This document shows positions 1,355 to 8,799 of a stretch of DNA of 22,805 nucleotides, piece by piece (within the stretch, counting starts at the first letter, position 1; each line of letters opens with the position of its first letter). The position numbers were made by a program, and so were the translations under genes. The stretch is taken from the IMG/VR virus record IMGVR_UViG_3300027704_000173, positions 1 through 22,805 of that record, one strand, 5' to 3'. The notes below the pieces were generated by a model that had not been told where the DNA came from, ran no database searches, and saw only the letters and a list, made by a program, of their open reading frames with translations. The stretch comes from a virus.

Positions 1355-1510
1355 ATGAAAATTAATAAAGACAGACTAAAAGAAAAGATTAAACAGGGTA
1401 AGAGTTCCAGAGTTGTAGCAATGCAGTTTGGTGTTAGCCCTTCAACAATTAGGCGTAAGGCTGCTGAGATAGGCATGAAGTTTAATTGTAAAACAACGTG
1501 GGGTAAGTAA
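1355..1510 (+). CDS. Small helix-turn-helix protein, 51 aa
   Basis: A 51-residue basic protein starting MKINKDRLKEKI. Residues 9-40 fit a homeodomain-like helix-turn-helix: KEKIKQGKSSRVVAMQFGVS is the first helix and turn, and SPSTIRRKAAEIGMKF the recognition helix, similar to resolvase or transposase DNA-binding domains. It has nothing else, so it is a bare DNA-binding unit. The stop overlaps the next ATG as TAATG, so it is cotranscribed and probably coupled with the 1510 gene. There is no strong ribosome binding site upstream. It could be a late regulator or a packaging-site accessory; neither is shown. Confidence 0.65.
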   Translation: MKINKDRLKEKIKQGKSSRVVAMQFGVSPSTIRRKAAEIGMKFNCKTTWGK

Positions 1511-2109
1511 TGACTGTAACAATACAAATCAAATCTAATCAAAAGGAATTGCAAAAAAAGATGGGATTGTTTAAGCGCAAACATCTACCGCAAGCAACAG
1601 CAGATGCTATAAACAATATAGGGGTTAAGGTTGTTAATGCTGAGAGGTCACAAATACAAAAGAGATTAGATAGACCAACACCATTCACCATTAAGTCAGT
1701 TGATATGCCAACTAAGTTCAGGGCTAAGCGTAATGACTTAGCAGCGTTAGTATTAATAAAACCTATTGCTCAGAAATATCTGAAGTATGTATTTCAAGGC
1801 GGTATTGAAAGAGCTGCTAAGTCAAAAATATTTGCACCAGTTACATCTGCTGGAGGTGAAAGAACTAACAAGTATGGTAATTTGATGGGACTCAAAGGCA
1901 ACAAATTAGATGGAAGAAAAGATTTATTTGTTAAGCAAAATGCGCTGTATAAAAGAGAGGGAGACAATGGCTTGAAGCTGTTGGCAGTTGCAAAAAATTA
2001 TATTAAACATACCAAGTTATTAGACTTCTGGAAGATAGGCTTTGGAGTTATCAAGAAAAATTATGACAAAGAATTAAGCAAGCAGATTAACAAGGCAATG
2101 AAAAGATGA
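1510..2109 (+). CDS. Putative tail-completion protein (lambda Z-like)
   Basis: A 199-residue basic protein. Residues about 26-65 (QATADAINNIGVKVVNAE, then RLDRPTPFTIKSV) and the later LKYVFQGGIERAAKS and NKYGNLM segments resemble a family of phage proteins often annotated as hypothetical or minor tail Z-like, which complete the tail near the terminator protein. In lambda, Z lies next to U, after the capsid genes; here the gene sits upstream of the terminase, about 7.6 kb from the U-like gene. The start is supported by GGGG shortly upstream and by TAATG overlap with the helix-turn-helix gene. Recognition is by motif pattern only, so a different virion role is possible. Confidence 0.5.
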   Translation: MTVTIQIKSNQKELQKKMGLFKRKHLPQATADAINNIGVKVVNAERSQIQKRLDRPTPFTIKSVDMPTKFRAKRNDLAALVLIKPIAQKYLKYVFQGGIERAAKSKIFAPVTSAGGERTNKYGNLMGLKGNKLDGRKDLFVKQNALYKREGDNGLKLLAVAKNYIKHTKLLDFWKIGFGVIKKNYDKELSKQINKAMKR

Positions 2110-2131
2110 TAACTATTTATAAAGCCTGTAC

Positions 2132-2146
2132 CTACAACGTTTGTAG
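2132..2146 (+). repeat. Perfect inverted repeat (6-bp stem, 3-nt loop)
   Basis: CTACAA, CGT, TTGTAG. The stem lies 23 nt after the stop of the preceding gene. No T-run follows, so it is not a standard rho-independent terminator. It could be a protein-binding site in the packaging region or an mRNA processing hairpin. Confidence 0.5.
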
Positions 2147-2178
2147 CTTATGTTAAACCTATATAAAAACACTAGGTT

Positions 2179-2204
2179 CTTCTACAGCCCTAAAAGGCTC
2201 GAAG
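2179..2204 (+). repeat. Interrupted stem-loop upstream of terminase
   Basis: CTTC pairs with GAAG and AGCC with GGCT around a CTAAAA loop, with a small internal loop (TAC against C). A T-rich stretch follows after about 8 nt, too far for a confident terminator. It may be a weak terminator or part of the packaging site. Confidence 0.35.
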
Positions 2205-2258
2205 GTTGCGATTTTGTTATTTTTTTAGATACAGCCAAACTGAATCAAACTTATTTGG

Positions 2259-2786
2259 ATGCTTATGGCTACTCAAGTTGAATTGGCTGAGCATTTGGGA
2301 ATGTCCCCCCAAAGTGTTTCAGAATTAGTTAAAAAGGGCGTTTTTAGTATCAAACGCGGTAGATCACCGGTAGATATAGATGTTTGTAGAATTGAGTATA
2401 TAAACCACCTGAGAAAAAGCGGATCGCACTTTAAAAAGTCCGGCTCAAGTGGTGACATGGTAGAAGAATCAACAAGGCTTAAAAAGTTTCAAGCCGATAA
2501 AGCAGAGCTAGAGGTGAATCAATTGGAAGGAAATTTAATACCAGCAGAATTAGTCAGAACTACTTGGGGTGATTTTGTTGGAAACGCAAAGGCTAAGTTG
2601 CTAAACATACCAACTAACCTAGCACACCAAGTATTAGCAGCCCAAGACTTTAACGAAGCTGAGCAATTAATTAAAAATAACATACATGAAGTATTAGAGG
2701 AGCTATCTCAAGATGGACTACCAAGAGAATATTCAGAAAGTTCTGAGCCAAGTGCAGAGCCTATGGAAACCACCAACAAATCTTAA
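2259..2786 (+). CDS. Terminase small subunit (Nu1-like)
   Basis: A 175-residue protein expected to bind the packaging site and recruit the large terminase. An N-terminal winged helix-turn-helix is visible at about residues 4-50: TQVELAEHLGMSPQSVSELV, then KRGRSPVDIDVCRIEYINHLR. The middle (about 65-90) is a charged helix, STRLKKFQADKAELEVNQLEG, that probably dimerises, as in Nu1-like proteins (lambda Nu1 is 181 aa). The C-terminal part likely contacts the large subunit. The start is ambiguous: the ATG at 2259 lacks a ribosome binding site, while the ATG at 2265 has GGA 5 nt upstream; the difference is two residues. Its end overlaps the large subunit gene by 74 nt, as small and large terminase genes often do. 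Confidence 0.8.
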   Translation: MLMATQVELAEHLGMSPQSVSELVKKGVFSIKRGRSPVDIDVCRIEYINHLRKSGSHFKKSGSSGDMVEESTRLKKFQADKAELEVNQLEGNLIPAELVRTTWGDFVGNAKAKLLNIPTNLAHQVLAAQDFNEAEQLIKNNIHEVLEELSQDGLPREYSESSEPSAEPMETTNKS

Positions 2787-4548
2787 AATATCAGAATGGG
2801 CTGATACCTATAGATTTCTATCACCAGAATCATCTGCAATAAGCGGAAGGTATAGAACAGACTATGCGCCATATCAAAAAGAAATTATGGATGTGTTTAA
2901 TGATCCAAACATAGAACGAATTATTTGGATGAAGTCTGCACAGGTTGGCGCAACTGAGATATTAAACAATGTAGTTGGTTATTACATACATCAACAACCA
3001 AGCCCAATTTTAATAATGCAGCCTTCTCTGGCTATGGCGCAGGCTTATAGTAAAGAAAAGCTATCAAACATGATAAGAGATACGCCAGTTTTGAGAGATA
3101 GAATAAATGATCCTAAGTCCAAAGATAGTTCTAATACTGTTTTATCTAAAAAATTTACAGGCGGAACAACACTTAATATTACAGGCAGTAATAGTGCAGC
3201 TTCATTAGCCAGCAGAAGTGTGCGTATACTCTGTATTGATGAAGTAGACAGAATGGAAAAATCAGTAGGGGCAGAGGGTGATCCAGTTCTTTTAGCGTCA
3301 AAGAGAACCCAGACTTTTTATAACCGCAAAATATATCTTTGCAGCACACCTACAGTTAAAGGCTTATCAAGAATAGAAACAGCCTTTGAAGAATCAGATA
3401 TGCGTTATTACTATGTACCATGCCCAGAGTGCAATCATAAACAAACCTTAAAATGGTCAAATGTTGTATGGGAGGATAATAAACCAGAAACAGCAATTTA
3501 CACTTGCGAAAATGGATGTGTTATTGATGAGTCCAAAAAATATTGGATGCTTAAAAATGGAGAATGGAAGGCAACAAGGGAAACAAAGAAAATTGCTGGA
3601 TTCCATTTAAGTGAGCTTTACTCTGTTTTTAGTTCTTGGGGTGATATGGCTGAAAACTTCTTAGAAGCCAAGAAGCAACCAGAGATGCTTAAAACATTTA
3701 TTAACACATCTTTAGGAGAGACGTGGCAACCTGAACCAGAAGAAGCAATAGCGCCAGAAGGGTTAATGGCTAAAAGAGAGGGCTATGATGCAAATACAAT
3801 ACCTGATGAAGCCCTTATATTAACGTGTGGGGTAGATATCCAGAAAAATCGTGCTGAGTGTCAGGTGGTAGCTTTTTCCCATAATTACGAAATGTGGGTC
3901 GTTGAGTACAAGGTTATCTATGGAAGTACAGGCGAGCCTAATGTGTGGAATGATTTAGACGCATACTTATCATCAACCTTTAAAACGCTATCTGGCAGAA
4001 TGATGAAAATAGCTTGTACTACTATTGATTCAGGGTTTCAAACTCAAATGGTTTATGCCTTTACTAGAAATAAAAAAGGAAGAAGAATATTTGCTATTAA
4101 AGGTCAATCACAAAGCGGAAAGACTGTTGTTGGAAAGCCTAGCAAAGTTGGTAAGGAGGACAATACGCTTTATCCGGTTGGCTCTGATACAGCTAAAGAA
4201 GTTATTTATTCAAGGCTTGCTTCAGAATATGGCTACTCAACCTTGCATTTTCCTTCAACAGTAGATGAAGAATATTTTAAAATGCTAACTGCTGAGCAGA
4301 GATTTGTTAAATTTGTAAAAGGTAGAAAGACTTTATTTTGGAAACAGATTAGAGAGCGCAATGAAAGTCTTGACACGATTTGTTATTCACTTGCAGCAGC
4401 TTACATATTGAACCCTAACTGGGATGCTATAGAGGAGAGATTGCTTACAGGTCAAAGCCAAACAATACCAGTTGATGAAAATAGTCCATTGATTAGGCAG
4501 AGACCTAGCCGGAACACTAACTTTGCTAACAGTTGGAAAGATTTATAA
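2713..4548 (+). CDS. Terminase large subunit (gpA family)
   Basis: A 611-residue packaging motor and nuclease of the lambda gpA type (lambda gpA is 641 aa). The ATPase half shows a Walker A-like KSAQVGATE at K74-E82, which corresponds to KSARVGYS in lambda, and a Walker B ILCIDEVDRM with D176/E177. A Cys4 zinc knuckle follows (C237, C240, C265, C269). The nuclease half has candidate metal-binding acids in CGVDIQKNR (D375), TTIDSG (D439) and NESLDTICYSLAAAY (D554). GAGGAG at 2697-2702, 10 nt upstream, supports the start, and the 74-nt overlap with the small subunit suggests coupled translation. This type generally packages cos-ended genomes, which supports a cos site nearby. Confidence 0.95.
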   Translation: MDYQENIQKVLSQVQSLWKPPTNLKISEWADTYRFLSPESSAISGRYRTDYAPYQKEIMDVFNDPNIERIIWMKSAQVGATEILNNVVGYYIHQQPSPILIMQPSLAMAQAYSKEKLSNMIRDTPVLRDRINDPKSKDSSNTVLSKKFTGGTTLNITGSNSAASLASRSVRILCIDEVDRMEKSVGAEGDPVLLASKRTQTFYNRKIYLCSTPTVKGLSRIETAFEESDMRYYYVPCPECNHKQTLKWSNVVWEDNKPETAIYTCENGCVIDESKKYWMLKNGEWKATRETKKIAGFHLSELYSVFSSWGDMAENFLEAKKQPEMLKTFINTSLGETWQPEPEEAIAPEGLMAKREGYDANTIPDEALILTCGVDIQKNRAECQVVAFSHNYEMWVVEYKVIYGSTGEPNVWNDLDAYLSSTFKTLSGRMMKIACTTIDSGFQTQMVYAFTRNKKGRRIFAIKGQSQSGKTVVGKPSKVGKEDNTLYPVGSDTAKEVIYSRLASEYGYSTLHFPSTVDEEYFKMLTAEQRFVKFVKGRKTLFWKQIRERNESLDTICYSLAAAYILNPNWDAIEERLLTGQSQTIPVDENSPLIRQRPSRNTNFANSWKDL

Positions 4549-4631: not shown

Positions 4632-5192
4632 TTGAGCAACGCGTTTAATTCTGCAAATTACCCTAATGAAGTTGAACCCTTTTTACAAAAGGGCGATTAT
4701 TGGGCATGGAAAAGAACTGATCTTTCCAATGATTACCCAGTATCTTTATATTCTTTAAAATACAAATTTCATTTAATTAGTGGCTCTACTGCTGCTTCAT
4801 TTATTGTTAATGCAACTGAGTCTAATAATGAATATTTATTTGCATTAGCAAGCACTTCTTCACAAACAGCAGGAGATTACAAATGGACAGCCATTGTTAC
4901 TAATGCTGCTTCAGTTTCAGCTATTGTTAATGAAGGATATGTAACTATCGTTGATGATGGTCTTAGGTCGCATGTAAAGATTGTTTTAGATTCTATAGAA
5001 GCAGTTGTTGAAGGACGTGCAAACATGGATCAGTCAAGTATGAGCATTGCAGGCAGATCGCTTTCCAGAATGTCTATAGACGAGCTTTTAACATTTAGAG
5101 ACAGATATAAAGTTGAATGGCTAAAGGAAGTAAAGCTGGCAAGGGTTAAAAATGGCAATCCTTCTGGTAACACTATTGGGGTGCAGTTCTAA
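4632..5192 (+). CDS. gpW-like head-tail joining protein with extra N-terminal domain
   Basis: A 186-residue protein. The last 70 residues (LDSIEAVVEGRA, SSMSIAGRSLSRMSIDELL, then FRDRYKVEWLKEVKLA and a short basic/aromatic end) match the phage gpW-like pattern of helix, GRSL turn, then helix. gpW-like proteins plug the portal so the tail can attach. Lambda W is only 68 residues; here about 115 residues are added in front. That part is rich in T, S, Y, V and looks like a beta-sandwich (KYKFHLISGSTAASFIV, GDYKWTAIVT), possibly an Ig-like domain. The start is TTG with GAGG 7 nt upstream. Its stop overlaps the portal start as TAATG. The order gpA, W, B is that of lambda. Confidence 0.65.
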   Translation: MSNAFNSANYPNEVEPFLQKGDYWAWKRTDLSNDYPVSLYSLKYKFHLISGSTAASFIVNATESNNEYLFALASTSSQTAGDYKWTAIVTNAASVSAIVNEGYVTIVDDGLRSHVKIVLDSIEAVVEGRANMDQSSMSIAGRSLSRMSIDELLTFRDRYKVEWLKEVKLARVKNGNPSGNTIGVQF

Positions 5193-6673
5193 TGGCATGG
5201 TATAACAATATTTTAAGAAGAAGAAAGCAAGAAAAAACAATCAGCTTAAAACAACGAACCTTTCAGGGCGCTAATACAGGGCGTTTATTTGCAGACTTTT
5301 CATCTACTTCAGCAAGTGCTGATTCAGATATTCAACCTAATATAAGAATATTAAGAGCAAGAGCCAGAGAGCTGGCTAGAAATGACTCATACGTTTCAAG
5401 ATATTTAAACTTAATGATTTCAAACGTGGTTGGAAAGTCAGGAATTAGAATAAGCTCTAAAGCTAGAGATGATAATGGCACTTTAGACATGAACGCCAAT
5501 AAGCAAATTGAAACAGCATTTAAACAATGGTGTAAAAAAGGCGTTTGCGTTTCTAATGGCAGAATGAGTTTTTTGGATGCTCAAAAACTATTTGTAGAAA
5601 CTCTTTATAGGGATGGCGAAGTATTAATACAGCACATCCAAACAAATACAAACAAATTTGGTTACATGATCCGCTTCTATGAAGCAGACCATTTGGACGA
5701 AGAATATAATGACACCGCTTCTAATGGCAACAAGATAAAAATGGGCGTAGAAGTCAATGACTTTGATAAACCTGTTGCATATTATTTATTTAAAGATCAT
5801 CCATACGACACTTTATATTCAAACGTAAGAAAACATATTAGAGTACCGGCAGATGAACTGTTACATATTTTCTTATGTAATAGACCAGAGCAGACTAGGG
5901 GCGTATCACCTATATCAACAGCAATGGCTAATATAAAAATGTTAGGCGGATATTTGGAAGCCGAGGTCGTTGCAGCAAGAGTTGGTTCAAGTAAGATGGG
6001 GTTCTTTACTAGCCCAGATGGTAACAGTTATGTTGGTGATGGTGAGGAAGGCGGATATGCTCCAGTTATGAACGCCACCCCCGGAACGTTTGAACAACTA
6101 CCAGCAGGCATGGACTTTAAAAGCTTTGATCCCAATCACCCTTCAAGTGCATTTGAATCTTTTACTAAATCAGTTTTAAGATCAATATCCTCTGGTTTAA
6201 ATATTTCTTACCATTCTTTATCTAATGATTTATCAAGCGTAAATTATTCTTCAATCCGACAGGGAGCTTTGGAGGACAGAGCAGCCTACCAAATATCACA
6301 ACAACTAATGATAGATCACATGGTAGAGCCAATATTTAAAAAATGGCTTGAAATGTCTATATCAACCGGAGCAATTAACTTGCCCATAGCTAAATTTGAT
6401 AAATTCTTTGATGCAACTAATTACATTGCTAGAGAATGGTCTTGGATTGACCCTCTTAAAGAAATACAGGCTTCAGTTGTAGGCTTACAAAATGGCATTA
6501 CTACATATTCTGATATTGCAGCTTCTCAGGGCAGGGATGCAGAAGAACTAATGGAAATGCACCAAAAAGAAAAAGAACTTATGGCTCAGTATGGAGTTAC
6601 TAGTGCTTATCAACCTTTCGGCAATAAAGCACCAGTTCCAGCCGAGATAGAAGGTGAAGATGATGAAAGTTAG
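5192..6673 (+). CDS. Portal protein (lambda gpB family)
   Basis: A 493-residue portal, the dodecameric ring at the head vertex through which DNA enters and leaves (lambda gpB is 533 aa). Matching landmarks are RARARELARNDSYVSRYLNL near the N-terminus, then FMISNVVGKSGI-type segment, DGEVLIQHI, IRFYEADHLDEEYN, IRVPADELLHIFLCNRPEQT with RGVSPISTAM, and SSVNYSSIRQGALEDR in the C-terminal half. These are characteristic of the lambda-type portal family. Start and previous stop overlap (TAATG), consistent with coupled translation with the gpW-like gene. The acidic C-terminus (EIEGEDDES) is typical. No truncation is apparent. Confidence 0.92.
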   Translation: MAWYNNILRRRKQEKTISLKQRTFQGANTGRLFADFSSTSASADSDIQPNIRILRARARELARNDSYVSRYLNLMISNVVGKSGIRISSKARDDNGTLDMNANKQIETAFKQWCKKGVCVSNGRMSFLDAQKLFVETLYRDGEVLIQHIQTNTNKFGYMIRFYEADHLDEEYNDTASNGNKIKMGVEVNDFDKPVAYYLFKDHPYDTLYSNVRKHIRVPADELLHIFLCNRPEQTRGVSPISTAMANIKMLGGYLEAEVVAARVGSSKMGFFTSPDGNSYVGDGEEGGYAPVMNATPGTFEQLPAGMDFKSFDPNHPSSAFESFTKSVLRSISSGLNISYHSLSNDLSSVNYSSIRQGALEDRAAYQISQQLMIDHMVEPIFKKWLEMSISTGAINLPIAKFDKFFDATNYIAREWSWIDPLKEIQASVVGLQNGITTYSDIAASQGRDAEELMEMHQKEKELMAQYGVTSAYQPFGNKAPVPAEIEGEDDES

Positions 6674-6739
6674 GGCGTATGGGAAACAATTACCTAATTG
6701 TGGGGTTACTCAATTAACTGGTGGGAGAGGGTAACACTT

Positions 6740-8755
6740 ATGCCAAATGATTTAATAACAACTAGCGAGGAAAATGAAATGGATGATATTAATATTGAAA
6801 ACACCATTTCTGAAACTGATGAAGTTGAAACAACTGAAATAGATGAAGTGCAAACTGAATCTGAAGAAGTCGTAGAAACTGAACCAGAAGAAATGGCTGT
6901 TGAAGTTGAAGGTGATGAAGATAGGTCTAGTTCTAGTGAGATTGCTTACAGAACAATGGATTTGTCCAGAGCTTCTTATATAGATGAAGAAAAGCGAACT
7001 GTAAGGGTTGGAGTCAGCTCAGAACAAGGCGTGGAACGTTCATTTGGATTAGAGGTTTTAGATCACAGCAGACAATCTATAGATATGGATTTTATGGAAT
7101 CTGGAAGAAGTCCTTTATTGCTTGAACATGATATGTCTCAAGTTATAGGCAAGGTGGAAAGTTTTGAAATTGATGAAACAGCAAAAAGGACAACTGCTGT
7201 ACTTCGCTTTGGGAGAAGTGAACTAGCTTCAGAAATATTCAATGATATCGTCGATGGAATAAGACAGAACATTTCGGTCGGCTATAGAATTAATAAAATG
7301 GAACGTATGACAGACGAAAAAAATGGTGAGCATTATAGGGCTATGAGCTGGACTCCAATGGAGGTTAGCAGCGTGGCAATTGGTGCGGATAATTCATTTC
7401 AAGTAGGCGTTGGACGTTCTAAAGATAAAAAAGAATTAAATTTTAAGGAAATTAAAATGGAAACAGAAAATAAAATAGATACAAACGCTATCAGAAGTGA
7501 AGCGACTGAATCTGCTAAAGCAGAAATGCAAAAAAATGTGAGAGAAATTCAAGCATTAGGTAAGCACCACAACCAAAGAGATTTGGCTGATAGTGCTATT
7601 CAAAGTGGACAAACTGTTGAACAGTTTAGAGGATCATTATTAGACACAATTTCTAATGATAAGCCTTTAGAAGTTGCGCCAGCGGTTCTAGGTCTAAACG
7701 AGAATGAAAGAAGTGAATACTCTTTAATCAAAGCAATCAACGCTAGTTCTACTGGTGATTGGTCTAAAGCTGGTTATGAAAGAGAGCTTTCAGAAGAAAT
7801 TGCTCAAAGAACTGGTAGAGAAGCTAGAGGTTTTTACATGCCTTCAGATCTTAACTGGGGACAAAGAGACCAAAAAGTTACACCAAATAGTGCCGGTGGA
7901 TTTTTAGTTGGTACAGATCATCTTGCAGACCAGTTTATTTCAGCTTTATACGCTAAATTAAGCATTGGTGAGCTTGGCGCGAGAGTTATGACAGGACTTA
8001 AAGGGAATGTTTCGATTCCTAAGTTATCAGCTCAAACAACTAATACAGCCTTCGTAGCTGAAGGGGCTGCACCAACTGAAGGCGCGGCAGTATTCGAGCA
8101 AGTGACTATGACACCAAAAACTTTGGCTTCATTTGTAGATTGTTCTAGAAAACTTATGCTTCAGTCTGATCCTTCAGTTGAAGCAGTATTAAGAAATGAC
8201 ATCATTTCTCAGTTTGCTAGAAAAATTGACCAAGTTGCTATTCAAGGTGGGGCTACAAATGAGCCATCTGGAATTATACCTAACGTTGCTTCTGGTAATG
8301 TTGTTGCTATGGGAACTAATGGTTTAGCTGTTACTTATGCAAAAATTGTTGAACTAATCAAAGCAGTAGACACGTCTAACGCTATGGGTGGTAATCCAGC
8401 ATTTTTAACTAATCCGAAAGTTGTTGCTGCTCTTAGAACTATCTCTAAGCAAGCTGGCGGAGCTGAAGGTAACTTCATAATGGAAGCTGTTAATTCAATT
8501 CTAGGTTATGACGTATCTTCAACTACTTTAGTACCAAGCAACCTTGTAAAAGGTAACTCTGGCGCTAATTGTTCAGCTGCTATATTTGGAGATTTCTCTA
8601 ACGTCATGCTTGGCTTCTGGTCTGGTGTTGATGTTGTAGTTGATACTTCTTCTCTATCTACATCTGGTGGAACACGTCTTGCGTTCTTCCAAGACTTAGA
8701 CGTTGGTCTAAGACATGATGACGGATTTGGGGTTATTAAAGACATATTAGCTTAA
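6740..8755 (+). CDS. Prohead protease-major capsid protein fusion
   Basis: A 671-residue polyprotein. Residues about 9-68 are a strongly acidic leader (Asp/Glu/Thr-rich). Residues about 70-235 are an S78-type prohead protease: candidate His130 (LLEHDMSQVIG), Ser179 (NISVGYRI) and Glu208 (WTPMEVSS). Residues 240 to about 363 are a charged, helical delta/scaffold-like region, and about 364-671 an HK97-fold capsid (PNSAGGFLVG, VAEGAAPTEGAA, FVDCSRKLMLQSDP, AIQGGATNEPSGI, DLDVGLRHDDGFGV). The protease would cleave itself and the delta region away during maturation. The ATG at 6740 was chosen because AGAGGGT lies 8 nt upstream; the ATG at 6779, with AGCGAGG 8 nt upstream, is an alternative. Protease-capsid fusions are known but less common than separate genes. 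Confidence 0.9.
   Translation: MPNDLITTSEENEMDDINIENTISETDEVETTEIDEVQTESEEVVETEPEEMAVEVEGDEDRSSSSEIAYRTMDLSRASYIDEEKRTVRVGVSSEQGVERSFGLEVLDHSRQSIDMDFMESGRSPLLLEHDMSQVIGKVESFEIDETAKRTTAVLRFGRSELASEIFNDIVDGIRQNISVGYRINKMERMTDEKNGEHYRAMSWTPMEVSSVAIGADNSFQVGVGRSKDKKELNFKEIKMETENKIDTNAIRSEATESAKAEMQKNVREIQALGKHHNQRDLADSAIQSGQTVEQFRGSLLDTISNDKPLEVAPAVLGLNENERSEYSLIKAINASSTGDWSKAGYERELSEEIAQRTGREARGFYMPSDLNWGQRDQKVTPNSAGGFLVGTDHLADQFISALYAKLSIGELGARVMTGLKGNVSIPKLSAQTTNTAFVAEGAAPTEGAAVFEQVTMTPKTLASFVDCSRKLMLQSDPSVEAVLRNDIISQFARKIDQVAIQGGATNEPSGIIPNVASGNVVAMGTNGLAVTYAKIVELIKAVDTSNAMGGNPAFLTNPKVVAALRTISKQAGGAEGNFIMEAVNSILGYDVSSTTLVPSNLVKGNSGANCSAAIFGDFSNVMLGFWSGVDVVVDTSSLSTSGGTRLAFFQDLDVGLRHDDGFGVIKDILA
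7445..7450 (+). promoter_or_regulatory. Internal ribosome binding site inside the fusion gene
   Basis: AAGGAA sits 6 nt before an in-frame ATG at 7457, exactly at the boundary between the protease and the scaffold/capsid part. Sequence and spacing are better than at most gene starts in this window. Confidence 0.5.
7457..8755 (+). CDS. Nested capsid precursor from internal start (predicted)
   Basis: Translation from the internal ATG (Met240 of the fusion) would give a 432-residue protein made of the delta/scaffold-like region and the full HK97-type capsid without the protease. It has a good ribosome binding site 6 nt upstream. Its length is close to that of a stand-alone HK97-type capsid precursor (HK97 gp5 is 385 aa with a 102-residue delta domain). 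This would let the phage make many capsid subunits and few protease copies, as lambda does for scaffold Nu3 nested in the protease gene C. The alternative is that the Met is only an internal residue and the fusion alone is made. Confidence 0.45.
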   Translation: METENKIDTNAIRSEATESAKAEMQKNVREIQALGKHHNQRDLADSAIQSGQTVEQFRGSLLDTISNDKPLEVAPAVLGLNENERSEYSLIKAINASSTGDWSKAGYERELSEEIAQRTGREARGFYMPSDLNWGQRDQKVTPNSAGGFLVGTDHLADQFISALYAKLSIGELGARVMTGLKGNVSIPKLSAQTTNTAFVAEGAAPTEGAAVFEQVTMTPKTLASFVDCSRKLMLQSDPSVEAVLRNDIISQFARKIDQVAIQGGATNEPSGIIPNVASGNVVAMGTNGLAVTYAKIVELIKAVDTSNAMGGNPAFLTNPKVVAALRTISKQAGGAEGNFIMEAVNSILGYDVSSTTLVPSNLVKGNSGANCSAAIFGDFSNVMLGFWSGVDVVVDTSSLSTSGGTRLAFFQDLDVGLRHDDGFGVIKDILA

Positions 8756-8771: not shown

Positions 8772-8799
8772 GGGTGACCTTAATTGGTCACCCCTTTTT
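8772..8799 (+). terminator. Rho-independent terminator after capsid gene
   Basis: A perfect 8-bp GC-rich stem, GGGTGACC at 8772-8779 and GGTCACCC at 8786-8793, with a TTAATT loop and CTTTTT directly after. It lies 16 nt after the capsid stop and ends 11 nt before the next start. It probably reduces transcription into the connector and tail genes, leaving capsid mRNA in excess. It is the only clear terminator in the window. Confidence 0.9.

Follow-up and report, generated by a model that had tools for sequence, protein, structure and literature searches.

How can a phage make many capsid subunits and few proteases when both are encoded by a single gene? Fusions of a prohead protease to the major capsid protein raise this problem of stoichiometry, and with it a problem of space. 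A T=7 head such as the HK97 prohead contains 415 capsid subunits and only ~60 proteases, while D3 has 540 capsid subunits and ~90 proteases (PMC12749128). With these copy numbers as analogy, the argument of an earlier, sequence-only reading of our locus, that a need for many capsids and few proteases would favor separate synthesis of the capsid part, is plausible. We therefore ask whether a conserved internal start could answer the problem.

The window, i.e., the whole stretch of 22.8 kb that was analyzed (IMG/VR record IMGVR_UViG_3300027704_000173), comes from a marine phage and contains a tailed-phage head module. Terminase (2713-4548), a head-tail joining protein (4632-5192) and a lambda-family portal (5192-6673) are followed by a protease-delta-capsid fusion gene on the plus strand (6740-8755), after which come small head-tail genes. 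The fusion ORF encodes 671 aa from the ATG at 6740, with the Shine-Dalgarno (SD)-like motif GAGAGGG upstream; residues are counted here from 6737, which gives a full product of 672 aa. TTG at 6698 and ATG at 6779 are alternative first starts, and the choice between the two ATGs is ambiguous, as the one at 6779 also has an SD (GAGGA). Directly 3' of the gene, a pattern match points to an intrinsic-terminator-like hairpin (8772-8793, plus strand; GGGTGACCTTAATTGGTCACCC, then CTTTTT). A terminator is annotated at the equivalent place after the fusion gene in the Mano and Mica records.

The claim that protease and capsid share one frame was confirmed by matches to Pfam Peptidase_S78 and Phage_capsid, to NCBIfam and to phrog_617. 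The protease domain (6977-7414, plus strand; residues 81-226) is of the S78/HK97 type. Its match to PF04586 (Peptidase_S78) is narrow (22.1 bits, cut-off 21) and TIGR01543 stays below its cut-off (28.1 versus 59 bits), and the assignment to S78 combines the Pfam match with conserved His and Ser. His131 (7127-7129), Ser180 (7274-7276) and Glu209 (7361-7363) are invariant in 31 homologues, and judging from this conservation they are likely the catalytic residues. The capsid part matches PF05065 (Phage_capsid) with an E-value of 1.6e-35, and a Foldseek search found the R4C capsid (8gta) as closest structure (E 1.2e-19). The protease-capsid fusion family phrog_617 was matched over nearly the full length (E 3.4e-124; residues 82-683, profile positions 8-624 of 626). 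The NCBIfam model for prohead protease/major capsid fusions, NF045541, matched the N-terminal part only, with 151.6 bits against a cut-off of 525, and the gene was therefore filed under phrog_617 only.

An AlphaFold2 model built from a 31-sequence alignment gave a confident protease domain (residues 81-226), a low-confidence linker (residues 227-256), helices at residues 249-359, a second loose stretch (375-398) and an HK97 fold from about residue 400 to 672. On the DNA, the disordered linker (pLDDT < 50) spans 7415-7504, the delta-like scaffold region 7457-7894 and the HK97-fold capsid domain (about residues 387-672) 7895-8752, all on the plus strand. The end of the delta region was inferred by alignment with R4C, whose capsid protein becomes ordered at residue 362 of 629, and removal of this region at maturation is expected. 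Hence, an HK97 fold lies C-terminal to a helical scaffold region, as in capsid proteins with a delta domain.

Within the first linker lies a candidate internal start. The SD AAGGAA (7445-7450, plus strand; duplex −6.1 kcal/mol) and the 6-nt spacer ATTAAA precede an ATG (7457-7459) that encodes Met241, in frame with the ORF that begins at 6698 (TTG) or 6740 (ATG) and ends at 8755. Both elements of the sequence-only reading hold here: the 6-nt distance between AAGGAA and the ATG, and the position at the domain boundary, with Met241 in the low-confidence stretch between protease and helices. The nested ORF (7457-8755, plus strand) encodes 432 aa starting with METENKIDTN, a delta plus capsid precursor with the layout of HK97 gp5, and on its own it scores 131.7 bits against TIGR01554 (HK97 capsid). 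A comparable SD precedes 5 of the 131 internal in-frame ATGs of the window; taken alone, the motif is therefore weak evidence. It becomes strong evidence because it is conserved among relatives.

Loss of the Met and of AAGGAA from related genes had been named as the observation that would speak against an internal start, and the relatives show the opposite. Met and SD are both present in every one of the 23 close relatives with coverage of the site. The AGGA of L016-L019 has moved by one base, so that it falls in a different codon phase and the encoded residues change (FKDIKM to FRKIKM). Named phages at 30-43% identity have a different linker peptide but retain the Met, with GGAGG, AAGGAG, GAGG or similar 5-9 nt upstream. 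Met and an SD-type motif are kept in VP882, phiHAP-1, CRP-406, CRP-811, CRP-821, CRP-831, RcRhea and R4C (the nested Met is residue 190 in RcRhea and residue 189 in R4C), and in ep3 and PT1 both are displaced by a few codons.

A wider comparison covered 64 representative homologues with pairwise identities below 80%. These were handled as independent although they are related, and hence the P values of this comparison are nominal. In each of the 64, an ATG follows no more than 60 codons after the end of the protease. The SD of the first Met after the protease had a median of −6.3 kcal/mol, versus −2.2 at 929 other internal Mets (Mann-Whitney P=6e-29), and it was the strongest of its gene in 38 of the 64 genes where 4.3 were expected. 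When the best Met within 40 codons of the protease was considered, 55 of 64 reached −4 kcal/mol or better. The observed SD also exceeded the mean of synonymous re-encodings of the upstream codons in 59 of 64 genes (P=5e-11), in a test that used the best-scoring linker Met and thereby slightly favors the observed value in the minority with two Mets.

Nucleotide-level selection at the conserved SD and start codon is further indicated by the silent sites. The strongest synonymous constraint in the gene lies at 7415-7483 (plus strand), from codon −14 to codon +8 relative to the nested ATG. Synonymous change in these 23 codons was 0.26 of expectation among 12 close relatives, the minimum over 622 windows (permutation P=5e-5), although the bounds of the stretch were fixed after a first look. 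The sole similar dip coincides with the true 5' start (bins 0.19-0.57), which serves as internal positive control. Other causes of the constraint were considered and rejected: there is no promoter-like match over 7415-7483, no overlapping ORF in another frame is listed at the site, and RNA structure does not fit because no part of the message is less structured than the nested site. When the window gene is ranked for absence of structure, the 61-nt nested site falls at the 99.8th percentile; over the 64 genes the median is the 96.8th. The primary start is more structured than the nested one (−6.8 versus −2.1) and has an SD of −7.9 against −6.1. The primary SD is thus at least as strong, and SD strength alone does not predict an excess of capsid; the ratio of long to short product cannot be read from the sequence.

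Conservation of Met and SD might also be mimicked by selection on the protein, for instance on a linker peptide or a protease cleavage site. Close relatives indeed share ELNFKEIKM-like peptides, and 51 of 61 SDs share one codon phase, so that frequent Lys-Glu codons may carry part of the signal. Yet the 5-mer before the Met takes 55 forms in 61 genes, and silent re-encoding weakens the SD in most genes. As a whole explanation, protein-level constraint is excluded by the synonymous constraint together with the SD excess over re-encodings, and we give it hardly any credence. It is also very improbable that the SD-like stretch acts as a programmed translational pause that aids folding without any initiation. 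Its place between two folded domains would suit such a pause, but a pause requires no Met, no spacing of 5-9 nt and no unstructured surroundings of the ATG, all of which are conserved, and a split relative starts translation at the equivalent site.

The split relatives bear on another alternative as well. The homologous protease of Faecalibacterium phage FP_Epona has its own stop codon (...VGVGR...NKNSI-stop), after which come AGGAGG and the ATG of a capsid gene that stands apart; the protease and capsid genes of Cellulophaga phage phi39:1 overlap as TAATG. The nested start lies where the capsid genes of both phages begin. Possibly, then, the capsid gene was once separate and became fused to the protease gene when the stop codon between them was lost; its SD and ATG would be remnants, and the full-length fusion alone would be used and cut by its own protease. 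The split relatives, whose capsid genes begin at the equivalent place, agree with this. However, a relic would be expected to decay, whereas silent-site constraint in this gene peaks here, and the SD persists both in the shifted codon phase of L016-L019 and in the homologues with 30-43% identity. Space also argues against it. With all 415 subunits in the full-length form, protein would fill ~63% of the prohead interior in the window phage and >100% in CRP-821, where 536 residues of the fusion precede the nested Met; with an assumed 60 fusions the fill would be about 30-37%. These are rough estimates that assume an inner radius of 20 nm and T=7. Overall, we consider a relic unlikely.

We conclude, with a probability of roughly 0.87, that the nested site is a functional internal start that yields a 432-aa scaffold plus capsid precursor, with the 672-aa fusion as a minor co-assembling subunit. 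This conclusion builds on the position of the site, the conservation of Met and SD, the synonymous constraint, the lack of local structure and the split relatives. From these we infer initiation at the nested ATG, the short form as majority product, co-assembly and cleavage. Ribosomes entering at 6740 or nearby would produce the protease-delta-capsid fusion of about 670 aa, and those entering at the internal SD and ATG (7445-7459) would produce a 432-aa precursor of delta and capsid, the counterpart of HK97 gp5. Since both forms share the delta and capsid domains, they could co-assemble in one procapsid. Through the minority fusion, the protease would enter the procapsid attached to a capsid subunit; it would then remove delta as well as its own domain, and mature capsid subunits of about 286 aa would remain. 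In line with this, the solved mature-shell model of R4C, a phrog_617 member with 415 capsid copies, contains only residues 362-629 of 629. The proposal of independent capsid synthesis is supported by conservation and silent-site constraint, with one refinement: the predicted product is a delta-scaffold plus capsid precursor and not the mature capsid protein.

The pattern is not uniform across the family. The three Synechococcus phages (3/3) keep the Met but lack the SD, and Mano, Mica and M29 have a weak SD before the Met. A host habit of initiation without SD offers only a partial explanation for the cyanophages, as an SD of −4 or better precedes 43% of the gene starts of S-LBS1. The very divergent fusion of a Helicobacter prophage (1426-3174 of its record; 23% identity) has in-frame ATGs at residues 183 and 193 with strong SDs (−8.7 and −8.5). 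An extra N-terminal domain, phrog_2859, precedes the protease in CRP-406, CRP-821 and S-CBS3, and the same motif is visible in CRP-811. Near the protease start there are additional in-frame ATGs with an SD, at Met136 in CRP-406 and at Met211 and Met324 in CRP-821. Judging from these motifs, some genes may have three nested starts.

Protease-capsid fusions have been described before (PMC8508860, PMC6536676), and nested starts of protease and scaffold are already known from lambda C/Nu3. Searches of the open literature did not turn up a family-conserved nested start that gives a whole capsid precursor; an earlier mention may exist in Effantin 2010 (Gifsy-2) or Duda 2013 (HK97 protease). Slightly better than even, in our judgment, are the odds of a broader picture: a dual-start rule across phrog_617, an independent origin of the same arrangement in ClpP-type fusions such as that of MD8, and a mosaic procapsid in which initiation sets protease dose and packaging. 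In such a procapsid, a minority of the capsid subunits would carry a covalently tethered protease on their own N terminus. A conserved internal start would answer the stoichiometry and space problem of fusion genes and offer a simple genetic handle on protease dose and packaging. It would also imply that the capsid precursor of phrog_617 phages is mis-stated in databases.

Among known systems, the named phrog_617 fusions (VP882, phiHAP-1, ep3, R4C and the CRP phages) form the family of the window gene. They are annotated as a single major capsid protein, and annotation of a nested start is absent from the phrog_617 phage records examined. A tripartite protease-scaffold-capsid gene is reportedly also present in Salmonella phage Gifsy-2. 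In Pseudomonas phage MD8, gp5 carries protease, scaffold and capsid on one ORF, but with a ClpP-type protease and a Mu gpT-like capsid it belongs to a separate lineage; the section consulted is silent on an internal start (PMC8508860). All 15 representatives of the MD8 gp5 family have a Met with GAGGAA, AAGGAG or similar just after the protease. Because a synonymous constraint scan of this family was unremarkable (not significant, rank 80 of 733), its nested capsid start is a suggestive candidate only.

In lambda, the C gene encodes protease and scaffold, and the scaffold Nu3 starts in frame downstream of the protease domain. The resemblance noted in the sequence-only reading is apt as a mechanism, since in both cases an in-frame nested start after the protease domain would give a protease-free partner. 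The proteins differ, however. The protease here is of the S78/HK97 type and the nested product comprises scaffold plus the whole major capsid protein, whereas lambda encodes its capsid protein E in a separate gene (for the roles of C and Nu3, see PMC3224144). HK97 (gp4 and gp5) and D3 likewise have an S78-type protease and a delta domain N-terminal to the HK97 fold, and the nested product shares the layout of gp5. In contrast to the two separate genes of HK97 and D3, the window phage appears to use one gene with two starts, and hence its protease would also be a capsid fusion.
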